DNA of 8,374 nucleotides, from NCBI GenBank assembly GCA_029210545.1, contig JARGFV010000105.1, positions 1 through 8,374 on the forward strand. Reading direction: 5' to 3'. Of this stretch, positions 1 to 8,374 are shown piece by piece. The position numbers and the translations under genes were made by a program. A model generated the notes under the pieces. The model did not search any database. It was not told where the DNA came from and saw only the letters and a list, made by a program, of their open reading frames with translations. The stretch is from a bacterium (GTDB lineage Bacteria; BMS3Abin14). Numbering within the stretch: position 1 is the first letter of the stretch; the number at the start of each line of letters is the position of its first letter.

Positions 1-233
1 ACTTCAAGAAGCGTAACTACCCCGAAGCCATAACGTATTATCAGAAGGCGCTGTTCATAGACCCGACCTTCGCCATGTCCTACTATAACATTGCTCTTGC
101 CAACGAGAACATGGGACAACAGATCGATGCCATTGCTAATTACGAAAAGTTCCTGCGGTTCTGGCTGGGTGATCCCAAGTACAAATCTATAGCACAACAA
201 AAAATCTCCCGCCTAAGGCAAAACAACCAGTAA
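1..233 (+). CDS. TPR-repeat protein, C-terminal fragment (5' end outside window)
   Basis: Reading in frame 3 (first whole codon at base 3) gives 76 residues ending in TAA at 231-233. Two tetratricopeptide-like helical pairs are visible. The first has the pattern Y-PEAI-YYQKAL-IDP, followed by F-A-M-S-YYN-IALA; the second has DAIANYEKFL. The end is basic and Gln/Asn-rich. TPR repeats are protein-protein interaction scaffolds, and the sequence gives no specific partner. The nearest downstream gene on the same strand starts 93 nt later, and I see no terminator in that gap, so the two may be co-transcribed. The N-terminus is missing, so total length, signal peptide and other domains cannot be judged. 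Confidence 0.8.
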   Translation, partial: FKKRNYPEAITYYQKALFIDPTFAMSYYNIALANENMGQQIDAIANYEKFLRFWLGDPKYKSIAQQKISRLRQNNQ

Positions 234-326: not shown

Positions 327-1382
327 ATGAAACTCAATTACATCAAGTACCAAATCTTTCCAGTATTTTTTCTGCTTTTATTCGGATTTTCTCTTCTGGC
401 ACCTCCTGTTTCTCTCGCATTCAAGACTTCAGAGGTAAACAGCGACACAAATAGGTCATCCATGGAAGTGGATGGGGCACAACCGTTCACTCTGCCTACA
501 GTGACACTGGACGGGGAACCTATCCCGGAGAAGATCATTCTGGCCGCCCTGAAGTTCGGCGCCGTTCAGAACACTATTTTTCACGGAGAAAATAACTTTG
601 ACGCTTATGTGCAACAGAAATGGGAAAGCACTGTAAACACATTGATCCCCCGATTTCTTCTGGCCAGGGAAGGACAGCGGACCGGGATCATTATTGACGA
701 TAATCGATTTAACACCTTTATTGGCGAACGGATCGAGCAGTTTGGAGGTAAAGAGGCACTGGAAGGCATGTTTGAAACCGTCAAGCTTCCCTTTGAAGAC
801 TACGTTGCCCTTTCCCGCCAGGCGTTCGGCGCCCGCCTTTACGTAGAGAAGCTTTTTGAAAATATTATCGTTTCAGAGGAAGACGCACTTACCTACTACC
901 AGGAAAACAAGGAGAGGTATGGAAAGCTGGGAACCCGCACCGTCTCATTTACACGCTACATTTTCCGCAAAGACCCGGTAGATATTGAATCTATTGGTGA
1001 CCTTCGGGCAGCTGCATCCGATATAGGGACGAATAATACTTTGACAAAGGTCTCGGACAGATTACGGAAAAAGTATCCGGTCGACGTCACCAACATGTAC
1101 GACATCGTCATCACCGAAAAGGTAACGGGCCCCCTCTGGATCGGGGCACAGGAACTTGCAAAGGGTCAGTGCGGTTATTTTCCATTCACAACAAGACCCG
1201 GCGTCAAGGAACACTACCTGATCCTGGTCAACCAGATCACCCCTGAGAACATAAGACCGTATGAGGAGATAAAAAGCAGGATCGTGAACAGGCTGGTAAA
1301 GGATCGTCAAAAGGCCATTCTGGAGCAGAAGGTCGCGGAACTGAAAGAGCGAACCCGGATCGAAATCCAGCAACCACAATAA
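327..1382 (+). CDS. Secreted SurA-N/parvulin-like chaperone (peptidyl-prolyl isomerase family, degenerate)
   Basis: The product has 351 residues. It starts with a hydrophobic signal segment (about residues 9-31) with a probable cleavage after SLA, so it should be periplasmic. Residues about 95-195 have the SurA N-terminal helical pattern: long amphipathic helices, I-I-DDNRFNTFI, then LPFEDYVALSRQAF and VSEEDALTYYQENKERY. Residues about 200-305 fit a poorly conserved PpiC/parvulin fold ending in EHYLILV, followed by a long charged C-terminal helix (about 312-343). Full-length SurA is longer (about 430 residues, two parvulin domains), so this is a short relative. The ATG has an AAGAGGG Shine-Dalgarno at 316-322. 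It converges with another parvulin-family gene across a shared terminator. Its role as a chaperone for exported proteins is inferred from family and context; isomerase activity is doubtful. Confidence 0.75.
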   Translation: MKLNYIKYQIFPVFFLLLFGFSLLAPPVSLAFKTSEVNSDTNRSSMEVDGAQPFTLPTVTLDGEPIPEKIILAALKFGAVQNTIFHGENNFDAYVQQKWESTVNTLIPRFLLAREGQRTGIIIDDNRFNTFIGERIEQFGGKEALEGMFETVKLPFEDYVALSRQAFGARLYVEKLFENIIVSEEDALTYYQENKERYGKLGTRTVSFTRYIFRKDPVDIESIGDLRAAASDIGTNNTLTKVSDRLRKKYPVDVTNMYDIVITEKVTGPLWIGAQELAKGQCGYFPFTTRPGVKEHYLILVNQITPENIRPYEEIKSRIVNRLVKDRQKAILEQKVAELKERTRIEIQQPQ

Positions 1383-1485: not shown

Positions 1486-3303
1486 TTAATGGAAAGAACC
1501 CTTGCTTGGTGAAATACCACGTATGGTCTTCCTTGCGTCCAGCCACTCCTCGATCATTTCACCCACGAGGCCGGCTTCCACAAGGTAATCAGCAGGGTAT
1601 TCCCTGGCTCCCCTTTCCATGATCGCCATATTGGTTCTCTTAAGGGAATCCTGCTGAATCGAATTCTTTACCTGAGCGTATGCTTTTTCGAAAGGTTGAA
1701 GGTCTCCCCGTTTTTTGCCAAGGACTTTGTAGACAGCCCAGCCGGTTTTCTCATCCAGGGGCTTGGTTACATCCCCAACAGGGGTCATCTCGAGGGTAAG
1801 GATTGCCTTTTCAGAAAAATCTCCCTCCCGATAGGTCCCTTCCAGTACCTCAGGGCCACCTTTTGAATCACTACTTTTCACGAGTCCTTCCAGCGGTAAT
1901 TCACGTTTAAGGTCTTTTGCAACATCCTCTGCAACATCTCGAGTGGCCAAACCCCGAACCCCCCTTACGCTGAATATCGCCTCTGGGGAATCTGCCTGCC
2001 CGGAGGAGTGAATATAAAAACTGAAAATTTCTTCATCGGAAGGCTCTGATTTTTTATTCATCCGGTCAAGGGCTGTCTGGACAAGGGCATCCTTCCAGGC
2101 ACGATCCAGATTTTCCTTGTACTCTTTTTCCTCCAGAACACCCTGGGAAGCCGCTTCTTCACGCATGGCGAGGTCCGGCGCCACTTCCCTGATACGGCTC
2201 CACCATGTATTAACAGAGGTACTTGCCACAGCTTCCTGGCCCTTGGGCCAGAGTGTCAGGACAACCTTTTGCATCCAGTCCCAGGTGATCTCGTATTGGC
2301 CCACTGTTCCCAGTACAATGCTGCCATCTCCAGTTTCGAGGGCCTTTTCCAGGCTTCCCTCGACAGGCTTCAAGGGATATTTTTCAGGTATCTTTCCCTT
2401 CAGGGAGTCCACCGCCAGGGCTAAGAGGCGATTTTTAGCGCCCTCTACCATATTATCGATCTCTTCCGGCAACAACGGTCTTTTATCCTCCATGAAGAAT
2501 ATATTATAACCAAGACCGGTGGGGATGACGGTGCTTACCTCTCCCTTTTCCAGAAATTCAAGCCTTGAAATGATTTCCGCACCGTAGTGATGGGGCAAAC
2601 CTGTGATAATCGGCTCAGTAAGAAGCCCACCGTTTTCTGATGCCGGCCCAACACTATGGTCCGTGGCCAGTTTTGCAAAATCCTCACCGGCAGCTGCGCG
2701 CTCCCGGATCCTCTGAGCCTCACCCAGTTCAAGGAGAACGATCTGACGTATAGTCATGACAAAGCCGGTTGACGGAACAGTAGCTCTCGCCACAGCATCG
2801 TCGATATTTACATCAGCATCCAACTTTTTGGAGTAATACTTCCCCGTCCACAGGGGGATCTTGGCCTCCCACGCTGACCGGATATCAGGAGAAACTTCCA
2901 TAGATTCCTTGACAGCATCGAGGTAAAGGTAGTTCCGGTAGAGGACCGTCCTGGTGACAGCCCTGCTGGCCAGCTCCCGCGTGTCGTCCTGTTTGGGCCG
3001 GTTGTACAACCTGTCGAATACATCGCGAAGTTCCATCTTCGTAACCTTGGTCCCTTTAAAGGCGATGAGAACCGTTTCCGGGGGGGCGCTCAGCAGATCG
3101 GTTACCCTTTCCGCGGTGAAAACCTGTACCTCACCCTCAACCTCCTCGAACGGTTTAGGCTCACATGCTGTGAGAGCGAAGATAGCGCAAAGAATGGAAA
3201 TAACGAGTGCAGTTATCTTAGGGACAGGGTTCCAATTGAATATGTAGGTCAATGGGTTTTCTCCAACGGTTATCAGTTTATCATCGATTAAAGGGGATGG
3301 CAT
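1486..3303 (-). CDS. Large parvulin-family (SurA/PpiC-like) lipoprotein, probable periplasmic chaperone
   Basis: The product has 605 residues. A hydrophobic stretch (about 30-46) ends in the lipobox L44-T-A-C47, so it is probably a membrane-anchored periplasmic lipoprotein. Residues about 183-275 form a clear PpiC/parvulin domain: the IRQIVL strand, AAAGEDFAKLA, ENGGLL, LEKGEVSTVIPT and LGYNIFF. The two positions that are usually histidine in parvulins (S-H-I-L and G-Y-H-I) are Q187 and N267 here. A second, very degenerate parvulin-like region lies at about 440-530 (ending GWAVYKVL), preceded by SurA-type helices (about 360-430) and followed by a C-terminal helix. It is the last gene of the minus-strand cluster, 48 nt after the thioredoxin gene. 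The ATG at 3303 leaves an unusual 28-residue polar leader before the signal helix. A TTG at 3252 with GGAGA seven bases upstream would give a 588-residue protein with a normal signal peptide. The family assignment is firm; the start and catalytic activity are not. Confidence 0.85.
   Translation of the reverse strand: MPSPLIDDKLITVGENPLTYIFNWNPVPKITALVISILCAIFALTACEPKPFEEVEGEVQVFTAERVTDLLSAPPETVLIAFKGTKVTKMELRDVFDRLYNRPKQDDTRELASRAVTRTVLYRNYLYLDAVKESMEVSPDIRSAWEAKIPLWTGKYYSKKLDADVNIDDAVARATVPSTGFVMTIRQIVLLELGEAQRIRERAAAGEDFAKLATDHSVGPASENGGLLTEPIITGLPHHYGAEIISRLEFLEKGEVSTVIPTGLGYNIFFMEDKRPLLPEEIDNMVEGAKNRLLALAVDSLKGKIPEKYPLKPVEGSLEKALETGDGSIVLGTVGQYEITWDWMQKVVLTLWPKGQEAVASTSVNTWWSRIREVAPDLAMREEAASQGVLEEKEYKENLDRAWKDALVQTALDRMNKKSEPSDEEIFSFYIHSSGQADSPEAIFSVRGVRGLATRDVAEDVAKDLKRELPLEGLVKSSDSKGGPEVLEGTYREGDFSEKAILTLEMTPVGDVTKPLDEKTGWAVYKVLGKKRGDLQPFEKAYAQVKNSIQQDSLKRTNMAIMERGAREYPADYLVEAGLVGEMIEEWLDARKTIRGISPSKGSFH
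3250..3264 (-). promoter_or_regulatory. Candidate ribosome binding site and TTG start for the parvulin lipoprotein
   Basis: On the minus strand, GGAGA (3264-3260) is followed after seven bases by TTG (3252-3250), in frame with the parvulin gene. Starting here puts the hydrophobic signal helix and lipobox cysteine 30 residues from the N-terminus, which is normal for a lipoprotein signal. The upstream ATG (3303) has only the G-rich GGTGG preceded by a run of seven G (3311-3317). Both starts are possible; signal-peptide logic favours the TTG. Confidence 0.5.
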
Positions 3304-3351: not shown

Positions 3352-3852
3352 TCACTTTAATATGTCTTCTATGGCACTGTGGCTATCCGGGCTGTAGCCT
3401 GAAATGACCTGCCTTACCAAAGCTCCCTTTTCAAAGAGGACTGTGGCAGGAGTGAAGCTGACCCCGAACTTGGAGGCAATGGCGAAATCTGGGTCTACGT
3501 AAACCATCGCGCCTTCCATTTTTTTCATGTACACCTTCATCCAGCGTTCAACCATGTCCTTGCCGCCGATATCGATACTCACCAGATGGATGTTGGAACC
3601 GGGGTGGTCCTTGTAAAGCCACTTGATCTCCTGCAGACAGTTGTTGCAGGTGGTGTTGAAGAAAACAAGCGCACCGGGCTCCTTAAACAAGGTGTCCAGG
3701 CCCACGGTGGTTCCGTCAAGTTTGGTGATCATGACAGGCGGTTCCGAGGGCACTGTACTTCCGGGGGGAAAGCCGATGGCACTGGCCACAGGCACCATGG
3801 CCAACCCGATGCAAAGCACCATCAGGGCTATCAGTGAACGTTTACAATTCAT
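3352..3852 (-). CDS. Exported TlpA/thioredoxin-like disulfide oxidoreductase (CNNC active site)
   Basis: The product has 166 residues. Its Sec signal peptide (about 1-25) ends in VASA, predicting a soluble periplasmic protein. The rest is a compact thioredoxin fold: a beta strand ALVFFN, then T-T-C69-N-N-C72 at the start of a helix, the strand VSIDI, and F-T-P135, the cis-proline expected opposite the active site. The Trp that usually precedes the first Cys in thioredoxins and CcmG/ResA/TlpA proteins is replaced by Thr. ResA/CcmG-type members of this superfamily keep apocytochrome CXXCH cysteines reduced for heme ligation. Lying just downstream of a 14-heme cytochrome gene suggests that role, but this is inference. 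The start is well supported: AAGGAGG at 3866-3860 lies seven bases before the ATG. The parvulin lipoprotein gene follows after 48 nt, suggesting one transcript. Confidence 0.88.
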   Translation of the reverse strand: MNCKRSLIALMVLCIGLAMVPVASAIGFPPGSTVPSEPPVMITKLDGTTVGLDTLFKEPGALVFFNTTCNNCLQEIKWLYKDHPGSNIHLVSIDIGGKDMVERWMKVYMKKMEGAMVYVDPDFAIASKFGVSFTPATVLFEKGALVRQVISGYSPDSHSAIEDILK

Positions 3853-3967: not shown

Positions 3968-3986
3968 AAAAAACGGTTGCCCGTTA
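3968..3986 (-). terminator. Small intrinsic-terminator-like hairpin overlapping the cytochrome stop codon
   Basis: On the minus strand, AACGG-GCAA-CCGTT forms a 5-bp stem with a GNRA-type tetraloop, and six consecutive T (3973-3968) run from the end of the stem. The stem begins within the TAA stop of the cytochrome gene. The short stem suggests partial termination, which would leave more cytochrome message than thioredoxin/parvulin message. Ribosomes reaching the stop would also interfere with folding, so its strength is uncertain. Confidence 0.4.
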
Positions 3987-6290
3987 TTTCGCGTGACACG
4001 CGTTGCAGAGCACAGCCTCATCAATGTATCCGCCTGTACCAGCGCCCGCCGTCTCCAGGATGTAGGTGGAACCATCCGTATCGGCATCGTGGGCCCTGTG
4101 ACAGGACTCGCAGTTGATCTGGCCTGTGGAGGATCCGTCGGTGTTGGTACCAACGTGCGTGACACCGTTCTCACCGATGTTTGCATTGTTGGCAGTGACG
4201 GTTCCCATGCTGGTTGTATAATTTGGCAGAACCGGGTGTGTGGAACCGGTTCCCGGAGCTCCGCCATGGCATGAGGTACAAAGATACACAGTCGTTCCGC
4301 CATTGTCGTTGTTGCCAGCGGAGGACAGCAGCATACCGATACCGTCCAAGGTCGAGTTCTCGTTGTCAGAGTCTTCGTTGGTCCGCTCAGCAGCGTTGTA
4401 GTTGGTGCTGCCCGCATCGCTATCACCGTTGTTGGAGAATATGGCCTGCCCGGTGTCAGTCTTGATGATATGGCAGGAGGTACAGATCAGGGCCGAGTTG
4501 GCAAAACTGCCATCACTGGAGTAGTTGATGGGAGCAGTTGCACCGGCCTCGGGCGTGACAGCTGAACCGGATCCCTGGGCCCACTTGTAGTTGGCCGTGG
4601 CAATCTCACCAAGGACGTGGGTCCCGGCATCGGTGGTGTTGTGGCCTGTAAACCAGGAGGGGTTAACACCGTGACAGTCCACACACATGGAGTCGTCGGT
4701 GGCAACACCGGCCACGCCAGGGAAGGATGTAGCGTTGTTGTGGGCGCTCGCATTGGGTCCAGCGTGGCACGTCATGCAGCCCATAACGCCACCGGGGAAA
4801 TCGTAGTAGTTGGTCGAGCCGGTCCAACCGGTGGGGTCGGTGGTGATCATGTTGACCATCACCTGGGTTCTGGCAGCACCACCCGCGACCACGTAGGAGG
4901 ACCAATCCATGTCGGTGCCGATCTCGGTACCCGTGCCATCGGCGCGAAGATCGGTATCGCCGGTCACGGCAAAACCGGAGGGATGGTGACCAGGCTTGAA
5001 GTTGCCAGCACCGGTGCCGCTGTGGCAATCGGAACAGTAAGCAGCCTGGAGGGCGTACTCGTAGTTGGGGGGACCGACCGCGGTGTCGTCGTAGTTCGTG
5101 GCAAAGTGCATGTCGTGACACGACTGGCACACGATGACCTGGTTGGCGGCATCGGTGTTGAGCCACTTCGTACCTGCCGGCTCAGTAACATCAAAACCGG
5201 TGGCGGCGGTACCGTCGAAGGTGTTGTTAAAGGGGTGCGAGAAGGTAGCAAGAGCACCAGGGCCCGAGGTTGCGTTCGTGTAGTCGTGGCACTGGGAGCA
5301 GATGTCCGCAGATGCTGTGCCACTCGGGTCGGAGCTGTAGACTGTCAGGTCGTTATGACCAAAGTTCACCGCAAGGGTGACATCGGTCCCGGCGGCCAGA
5401 CCATCGGCAACGCCGTAACCCGCATCACCCTTGCCGAGCTCGTTCCAGTGGACAACGTGACAGGTACCGCAGTTGATCTCACCGGTAACGGCAGCGCCGG
5501 CGTTGGCCTCGAACTTGGCGCCCAGGTTCCAGTGGTTACCGGTAACGGTAGGCGTATTGGCTTCCTGGGTCAGGAGTGCCCAGGTGCTGTTGAAGTCTGT
5601 GCCGTAGGCGTCAACACCGAACTGGAGCAGGTTGGCGTTGGTGCCAGCCTCGGCCAGGACCACGTTGGAAGCCGGGTGGTTCTGGCGGGCGTCGGCGCCG
5701 GCGTTGCCGCCGTCGTTCTCGTCGCGGGCCACGTGGCAATCCTCGCAGAAGGTCAGGAAGTCGCCTGCCACCAGGGCCAGGGAGCCCGTGGTGTTGGACC
5801 TGAGGAAGGGCCTGTAGGTGTTGTCGTGGATGTTATGACATGACTGGCAGCCGACGACCGCCCCCAGGGTGGCGTGGGTGCTTGTGCCGTAAACGGCATC
5901 AGTGAGAGTGGCTTCGAGGGCATCACCCCAGGACTCCAGAACCGAAAGGTCACGCCCGTGGGAACCTGACTGGAAGGGGTTGATCTCAGCGGCGTCCGTG
6001 TAGCCTGAGGCGTCGTTGTGACAGGCCCAGCAGATGGCGGCGATGGGATCGTTGTCCCACTGAGACCCGGTAGCCACGTCCGCAATGGCGGTGGGGAACA
6101 GCTTCTGACCGCCGGCACCGTGGGGGATGTGGCAGAAGGAGCAGGCGCCCTTCTGGGCCGCTCCACCCGTGTAGTCCTGGTGCAGGATCATGTTGTGACT
6201 AGAGTTTAGAAGCCCCGCGGACATGGCCGTACCGGTGCCGAAAGCCACCAGGGCCAAAACCATAAGAGCCAAAACAAGCTTGCGTTTCAT
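3984..6290 (-). CDS. Exported 14-heme c-type cytochrome (doubled-CXXCH type)
   Basis: The product has 768 residues, with a Sec signal peptide (about 1-25, ending AMSA). There are 14 CXXCH heme c sites, with first cysteines at 50, 87, 148, 182, 274, 331, 388, 419, 505, 536, 603, 671, 727 and 762. Sites 1, 3, 5, 7 and 13 extend to CXXCHXXH. I count 20 further histidines, enough for bis-His ligation of every heme. The sites pair into seven modules resembling the doubled-CXXCH cytochrome family. The mature chain is very acidic (about four Asp/Glu per Lys/Arg), low in lysine and rich in Gly, Thr, Asn and Ser, with a polar linker at about 611-665. No membrane segment follows the signal, so it is periplasmic, outer-surface or extracellular. 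The start is supported by AGGAGG at 6304-6299, eight bases before the ATG. The likely role is long-range electron transfer; no catalytic site or terminal acceptor can be read from the sequence. Confidence 0.95.
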   Translation of the reverse strand: MKRKLVLALMVLALVAFGTGTAMSAGLLNSSHNMILHQDYTGGAAQKGACSFCHIPHGAGGQKLFPTAIADVATGSQWDNDPIAAICWACHNDASGYTDAAEINPFQSGSHGRDLSVLESWGDALEATLTDAVYGTSTHATLGAVVGCQSCHNIHDNTYRPFLRSNTTGSLALVAGDFLTFCEDCHVARDENDGGNAGADARQNHPASNVVLAEAGTNANLLQFGVDAYGTDFNSTWALLTQEANTPTVTGNHWNLGAKFEANAGAAVTGEINCGTCHVVHWNELGKGDAGYGVADGLAAGTDVTLAVNFGHNDLTVYSSDPSGTASADICSQCHDYTNATSGPGALATFSHPFNNTFDGTAATGFDVTEPAGTKWLNTDAANQVIVCQSCHDMHFATNYDDTAVGPPNYEYALQAAYCSDCHSGTGAGNFKPGHHPSGFAVTGDTDLRADGTGTEIGTDMDWSSYVVAGGAARTQVMVNMITTDPTGWTGSTNYYDFPGGVMGCMTCHAGPNASAHNNATSFPGVAGVATDDSMCVDCHGVNPSWFTGHNTTDAGTHVLGEIATANYKWAQGSGSAVTPEAGATAPINYSSDGSFANSALICTSCHIIKTDTGQAIFSNNGDSDAGSTNYNAAERTNEDSDNENSTLDGIGMLLSSAGNNDNGGTTVYLCTSCHGGAPGTGSTHPVLPNYTTSMGTVTANNANIGENGVTHVGTNTDGSSTGQINCESCHRAHDADTDGSTYILETAGAGTGGYIDEAVLCNACHAK

Positions 6291-8140: not shown

Positions 8141-8374
8141 TGTTACCTCCTTCTTTCTCCGTCAGTGTTTACGCAAGTTTCATTCCATAAAATTGCCATT
8201 CACAGCGGAAACCTGCCAGGCATTTTATCTTTATTTTCAGCAGGTTGCCATTATCTCTCCAATTTACTGCTTATAGCTGTCCTCAAGCACCTCCGTTGTG
8301 TGTGTTAAGACTCAACATGTGGGGGAAAAAACCCATGACCCAAGTCTCGGAATGGAAACAGAATGTACCGGACT
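8141..8374. other. Upstream region of the propeller gene; no gene supported
   Basis: This stretch holds the AAGGAGG ribosome site of the propeller gene (8152-8146), the inverted repeat at 8210-8246 and AT-rich segments where a minus-strand promoter is likely, but I find no convincing -35/-10 pair. From 8317 a plus-strand frame starting with ATG stays open to the window edge (19 codons). The minus strand is also open over most of 8317-8374, so coding here cannot be decided. Confidence 0.4.
8210..8246. repeat. Inverted repeat upstream of the propeller gene
   Basis: AACCTGC (8210-8216) and GCAGGTT (8240-8246) form a perfect 7-bp inverted repeat around an AT-rich 23-base spacer. The arms are 30 bp apart, close to three helical turns, so they could be paired half-sites for a regulator. 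They could also form a hairpin in the propeller gene's leader RNA. The distance to the start codon is about 70-105 nt. Confidence 0.35.

Follow-up and report, generated by a model that had tools for sequence, protein, structure and literature searches.

Known cytochrome filaments carry 4, 6, or 8 hemes per subunit. Two of them are the tetraheme filament protein OmcE of Geobacter sulfurreducens and the hexaheme OmcS, a linear filament with cross-subunit heme ligation; in both, a heme is ligated by a histidine of the adjacent subunit (PMC9473688, PMC12954529). In OmcS this is heme 5 (PMC6584659). Reviews disagree on how the hemes of OmcE correspond to those of OmcS. What cytochrome filaments do physiologically is itself a matter of dispute (PMC11077965). 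Clusters that combine a six-bladed propeller protein, a peptidyl-prolyl isomerase, and large cytochromes occur in bacteria exchanging electrons with partners or metals (PMC5539420, PMC8322314). In Geoalkalibacter an OmcE homologue is reported to lie beside NHL-repeat proteins (PMC12016550), and Desulfovibrio ferrophilus encodes a 14-heme cytochrome, DFE_0449 (PMC8446621, PMC9769857).

The stretch of bacterial DNA analyzed here (8,374 nucleotides, hereafter the window) encodes an enlarged relative of a filament cytochrome within this known kind of electron-transfer cluster. The protein carries 14 hemes in seven two-heme units and probably transports electrons outside the cell.

The 14-heme cytochrome

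The cytochrome gene and its modules are as follows.

3984..6290, minus strand: 14-heme c-type cytochrome gene, 768 aa including the signal peptide (about aa 1-25)
6018..6197, minus strand: module 1, H32 - CSFCHIPH (heme 1) - CWACH (heme 2)
5733..5960, minus strand: module 2, H111 - CQSCHNIH (heme 3) - CEDCH (heme 4), with an RPFLR motif common to OmcE
5286..5678, minus strand: module 3, H205 - CGTCHVVH (heme 5) - CSQCH (heme 6)
5022..5237, minus strand: module 4, H352 - CQSCHDMH (heme 7) - CSDCH (heme 8)
4671..4988, minus strand: module 5, H435/H436 - CMTCH...AHN (heme 9, its histidine H517 displaced by an insertion) - CVDCH (heme 10)
4266..4619, minus strand: module 6, H558 - CTSCH (heme 11, lacking the second histidine of CXXCHXXH) - CTSCH (heme 12)
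3993..4238, minus strand: module 7, H685 - CESCHRAH (heme 13) - CNACH (heme 14), followed by two residues and the stop codon

The ORF (6290-3984) begins with ATG, is preceded by an AGGAGG-like ribosome site, and encodes a Sec-type signal peptide. After removal of this peptide the protein, with a pI of about 4.5, is acidic; it has a high content of Gly, Ala, Thr, Asn, and Ser and allots 53 residues to each heme (743 residues, 14 hemes). The first cysteines of the 14 CXXCH motifs are residues 50, 87, 148, 182, 274, 331, 388, 419, 505, 536, 603, 671, 727, and 762, and the 768-aa ORF holds no longer-spaced CX(3-6)CH motif. A preliminary description, which had given no strand, agrees exactly with this heme count and these positions. 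It also recorded correctly the odd-to-odd spacings of 98-126 residues (98, 126, 114, 117, 98, 124), the within-module gaps of 31-37 residues except for 57 and 68 in the third and sixth modules (37, 34, 57, 31, 31, 68, 35), and the restriction of CXXCHXXH to hemes 1, 3, 5, 7, and 13. Composition alone would yield about 0.4 CXXCHXXH motifs against the 5 observed, and the chance probability that all five fall on odd hemes is about 0.01.

The protein belongs to the doubled-CXXCH class, scoring 67 bits with PF09699 (cut-off 20.6) and 57 bits with PF14522 (cut-off 24.8), and it matches Pfam Paired_CXXCH_1 at 1.2e-18. The preliminary statement that the family is known thus holds for this generic domain, while the informative relative is OmcE.

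Family and distribution

The family comparison comprises 18 full-length proteins (the window protein and 17 homologues) chosen by profile similarity rather than by heme count; two further homologues are cut by contig ends and lie outside the set. All 18 contain 14 CXXCH motifs despite lengths from about 655 to 950 aa. Weaker relatives with other heme counts exist, such as an 11-motif ORF at locus L070. The window's genome (G000) and others of its family, the one family of that phylum covered by the search, contain orthologues (46-48% identity) and paralogues (25-29%), locus L024 among them, and a search of 386 genomes yielded further relatives in other phyla. Matches in viral contigs cover only 60 residues near the N-terminus, and none was found among the plasmids searched.

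G000 holds four 14-heme copies, on contigs C105 (the window), C114 (L026), C24 (L029), and C3 (L032). Each of the four adjoins a propeller gene in this 2.7 Mb genome. The C3-type locus has no thioredoxin or PpiC gene directly downstream and adjoins an apparent sigma factor gene. More long doubled-CXXCH arrays (ORFs of 433-801 aa with many PF09699 matches) lie on contigs C117, C4, C13, and C18. In another phylum, L064 and L065 carry two to three 14-heme genes side by side with other multiheme genes of 5 to 15 motifs. At L063 (6592-7368) lies a gene for a clear OmcE-like tetraheme protein, which matches 7tfs at E 5e-31. A truncated gene of the 14-heme type precedes it by a few kb on this contig, and after it comes a large exported protein, possibly an outer-membrane barrel.

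An old two-heme period

The best representation of the unit is [His - CXXCHXXH - CXXCH], repeated seven times, and the histidine preceding each odd heme makes a better module border. With the CXXCH residues excluded, heme flanks of the same parity are more alike than those of opposite parity across the 18 proteins, and of 1716 equal splits the odd/even labelling accounts best for flank similarity. It remains the best split when the column of the additional histidine of CXXCHXXH (hereafter xxH) is removed, and also when upstream residues alone are used. The xxH lies on odd hemes throughout the 18 homologues and occupies all seven odd hemes in most of the distant ones. The two-heme period proposed in the preliminary description is therefore borne out at the family level, beyond CXXCH spacing.

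The accompanying proposal, that serial duplication is visible in the window protein, fared less well. Within this single sequence the modules show hardly any alignment outside CXXCH, and pairwise module alignments lie near background (mean z 0.85), with only the pairs 2-4, 2-7, and 4-7 reaching z 2.4-2.8. Scores from hhalign comparisons of module profiles are dominated by CXXCH and are no higher in the natural than in a shifted register, and for these reasons they were set aside as evidence. Recent serial duplication is not supported. Because all 18 family members, those of other phyla included, already have 14 hemes, any expansion is ancient, and the two-heme period, though genuine, is old.

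Distal histidines and heme ligation

The family conserves 14 distal histidines (H32, 57, 111, 155, 205, 281, 352, 395, 435, 436, 517, 558, 685, and 734), which gives the window cytochrome one per heme (14/14). Thirteen of them, H205 included, are present in 8/8 aligned sequences and H57 in 6/8; in the wider comparison H32 occurs in 18/18 proteins and H57 in 13/18. Six other non-proximal histidines (37, 139, 253, 312, 550, 712) are not needed for this count, H253 being present in 6/8 sequences. The short histidine motifs that had been noted after even hemes are present, but the one assigned to heme 10, GHN (H550), is not conserved; the family-invariant residue there is H558 (GTHVLG). In the window cytochrome, the pairing of ligand histidines with particular hemes is a putative one, drawn by analogy.

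The absence of xxH at heme 11 is offset by a second histidine in the HHP motif after heme 8. The window's group shares this arrangement, while the proteins of genomes G237, G097, and G366 have xxH at heme 11 and a single histidine after heme 8. The swap correlates in 18/18 proteins, is probably one evolutionary event, and fits a requirement for one distal histidine per heme. A sister clade (L032, L033, L067, L068, L060) has no xxH at heme 1 and carries one directly at heme 9.

Relation to OmcE and other solved cytochromes

As a single sequence the window protein finds no cytochrome in the PDB, only spurious ribosomal L31 matches. The family profile without signal peptide ranks OmcE (7tfs) first among all solved proteins (E 1.4e-13, OmcE residues 28-231), an end-to-end match that aligns OmcE to hemes 1-4. 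A profile of hemes 5-14 again ranks OmcE first (E 2.2e-6) and places odd hemes on odd hemes. The OmcE-profile match rests largely on heme motifs and a few others (KHDL-like, PFLR, LCxxCH). A family profile also gives a partial match to OmcS (6ef8, 3.5e-9) at the C-terminal hemes; OmcS has 6 hemes rather than 14. With the profile lacking the signal peptide, MtrA scores 2.2e-6. The second-best match of that profile, 9yuq (1.5e-9), is a putative multiheme cytochrome c present in 16 copies in its entry; it has 4 hemes with exactly four distal histidines and shares the four-heme pattern of OmcE, although its profile match is weaker.

In OmcE and 9yuq this pattern starts with a histidine at -18/-20; hemes 1 and 3 each carry xxH, DHP follows heme 2, and the chain stops at heme 4, so that the two-heme unit is present exactly twice. 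In the window protein and the 17 others the OmcE ligand order runs on through heme 14, and the chain likewise stops with the last CXXCH; this common order explains why OmcE is the best profile match. Like OmcE, the window protein is exported, matches over the full OmcE length at the profile level, and repeats H - CXXCHXXH - CXXCH with one distal histidine per heme and a terminal CXXCH. It differs in having 14 hemes rather than four per chain and in lacking a significant single-sequence match to OmcE, and its formation of filaments is putative. The difference in heme number makes it an enlarged relative and not an OmcE orthologue.

Operon, neighboring genes, and promoter

The operon on the minus strand comprises, in order, the propeller gene (8140-6539), the cytochrome gene, a thioredoxin-like gene (3852-3352), and a PpiC isomerase gene (3303-1486). 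The features outside the cytochrome gene are as follows.

8172..8187, minus strand: sigma-54-type promoter TGGAATGAAACTTGCG, which starts 47 bases ahead of the propeller start codon
6539..8140, minus strand: exported FN3/Ig-like and NHL-type beta-propeller protein, first operon gene (NHL in 7/8 orthologues, best 3.8e-17)
3352..3852, minus strand: exported thioredoxin-like protein, ResA-like, with a conserved CNNC
1486..3303, minus strand: PpiC/SurA-type peptidyl-prolyl isomerase, probable lipoprotein (LTAC)
327..1382, plus strand: second PpiC-type isomerase-like protein, convergent with the operon (similar ORF in orthologous loci)
3..230, plus strand: C-terminal TPR part of a gene, beyond the second PpiC gene

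Gene order is the same in the orthologous loci L025, L026, L028, and L029, the operon is conserved at 46-48% and at 28% identity, and the CXXC of the thioredoxin-like protein is invariant among orthologues. Operon-adjacent proteins in other loci (L025:2087-4009, L028, L029) are polytopic with C-terminal TPRs, and one of the three gives a weak, sub-threshold match to PMT_2 (O-mannosyltransferase). OmcE filaments are glycosylated, so a TPR membrane protein of this kind might modify the cytochrome.

The combination of propeller, large multiheme cytochrome, and isomerase, all exported, is the one found in the SEEP-SRB1/Desulfuromonadales/Ca. Desulfofervidus cluster (PMC5539420). The window differs in that a single OmcE-type 14-heme cytochrome replaces the pair of 16-heme and 26-heme cytochromes, and in that it adds a thioredoxin-like gene and a sigma-54-type promoter.

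Matching sigma-54-type sites occur at -41 to -47 in five loci, namely the window and the four others in its family with the region present; contig C114 ends before the propeller gene start and falls outside this comparison. The site is conserved in L025, L028, and L030. The pattern TGGNAYGNAACTTGCG occurs twice in the 2.72 Mb genome, at the window operon and at the C24 operon (G000:C24:5253-5268), and not at all in the reversed control of that genome. Genes for an NtrC-type sigma-54 activator and a histidine kinase adjoin several orthologous operons.

A candidate extracellular electron conduit

A unit found twice in a conducting filament is repeated seven times here, and the cytochrome therefore probably carries electrons outside the cell. 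The leading interpretation, considered moderately probable as a whole, is that of a secreted, bis-histidine-ligated, OmcE-related conduit whose seven [His - CXXCHXXH - CXXCH] units would stack 14 hemes in a line, with assembly aided by the partner proteins, expression driven by sigma-54, and subunits possibly joined head to tail. The thioredoxin-like protein would keep the heme-binding cysteines reduced, the PpiC isomerases would help the cytochrome to fold and pass through the periplasm, the propeller protein would serve as a surface partner or assembly factor, and the sigma-54 activator would switch operon expression on.

Given the relationship to OmcE, the wire-like chain proposed in the preliminary description and its polymerization are both plausible, and the window cytochrome may itself build filaments. 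The candidate N-terminal inter-subunit ligands are H32 and H57, one or the other of which would ligate a heme close to the C-terminus of the neighboring subunit, as in a head-to-tail filament of the OmcE kind with 14 hemes per subunit. An AlphaFold2 model from two sequences (the window protein and L024) had a pLDDT of 26.5 and no heme geometry and was discarded, so wire geometry and polymerization are inferred here from the OmcE relationship. Also counting against the leading interpretation are the single-sequence search that found no cytochrome, the dependence of the OmcE match largely on heme motifs, and the result that no porin or secretion gene was seen in the 8,374-nt window.

The strongest competitor, although an unlikely one, is a monomeric outer-surface cytochrome that serves an electron-transfer cluster as terminal reductase or electron acceptor, with hemes in linear order inside the protein and no polymerization. 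When large multiheme cytochromes are encoded beside genes for a propeller and an isomerase, the usual description is that of surface cytochromes (PMC5539420, PMC8322314, PMC9769857). DFE_0449, clustered with the propeller DFE_0451, shares with the window protein the heme number and the propeller neighbor; the likeness is one of literature description, not of sequence, and DFE_0449 is annotated with a lipoprotein signal, unlike the window cytochrome. Moreover, 5/18 homologues, the C3 paralogue among them, have no xxH (H57) at heme 1, so not every member can link subunits by that residue. The window protein, however, retains both H32 and H57 as well as an OmcE-like C-terminal heme ending, and conserved ligands match the hemes in number only when both N-terminal histidines are used.

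It is improbable that the protein is a periplasmic or porin-embedded conduit of the MtrA/DmsE type across the outer membrane. The linear heme order is typical of MtrA, and weak profile matches to DmsE (3.1e-8) and to MtrA point in this direction, but OmcE scores far better with the same profile, and the MtrA/DmsE family model TIGR03508 gives 33.4 bits against a cut-off of 192.2. The protein is also far less compact than MtrA, which has 25 residues per heme (PMC7399161). Among the ORFs of the window and of those orthologous loci that were inspected, none was recognized as a porin.

That the seven modules are merely the generic CXXCH spacing of large multiheme cytochromes is very improbable, for the near-background single-sequence alignments and the equal scores of shifted-register profiles that would suit it are outweighed by the odd/even split, best even without the xxH column, and by the confinement of xxH to odd hemes across the family.

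The preferred reading of an OmcE-related conduit extends, more tentatively and with some doubt, to a filament with a 14-heme subunit that arose by multiplication of the OmcE unit to seven. The sister clade without xxH at heme 1 is possibly a non-polymerizing version; in the extended reading it would be a natural non-polymerizing or cap form within the same genomes.

Implications

The literature search returned no paper on a 14-heme family built from the OmcE unit; key filament papers lay outside that search, which is thus not proof of novelty. If the leading interpretation is correct, heme-wire proteins would follow a unit rule (leading histidine, CXXCHXXH, CXXCH) by which the length of a wire could be deduced from its sequence, and a single series would take in related proteins of 4 to 14 hemes. 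A filament subunit with 14 hemes would be larger than any of those known. The family would also supply new filament candidates in little-studied bacterial phyla, with exact residues for the linkage of subunits, and the pair of promoter and regulator would tell when such wires are made.
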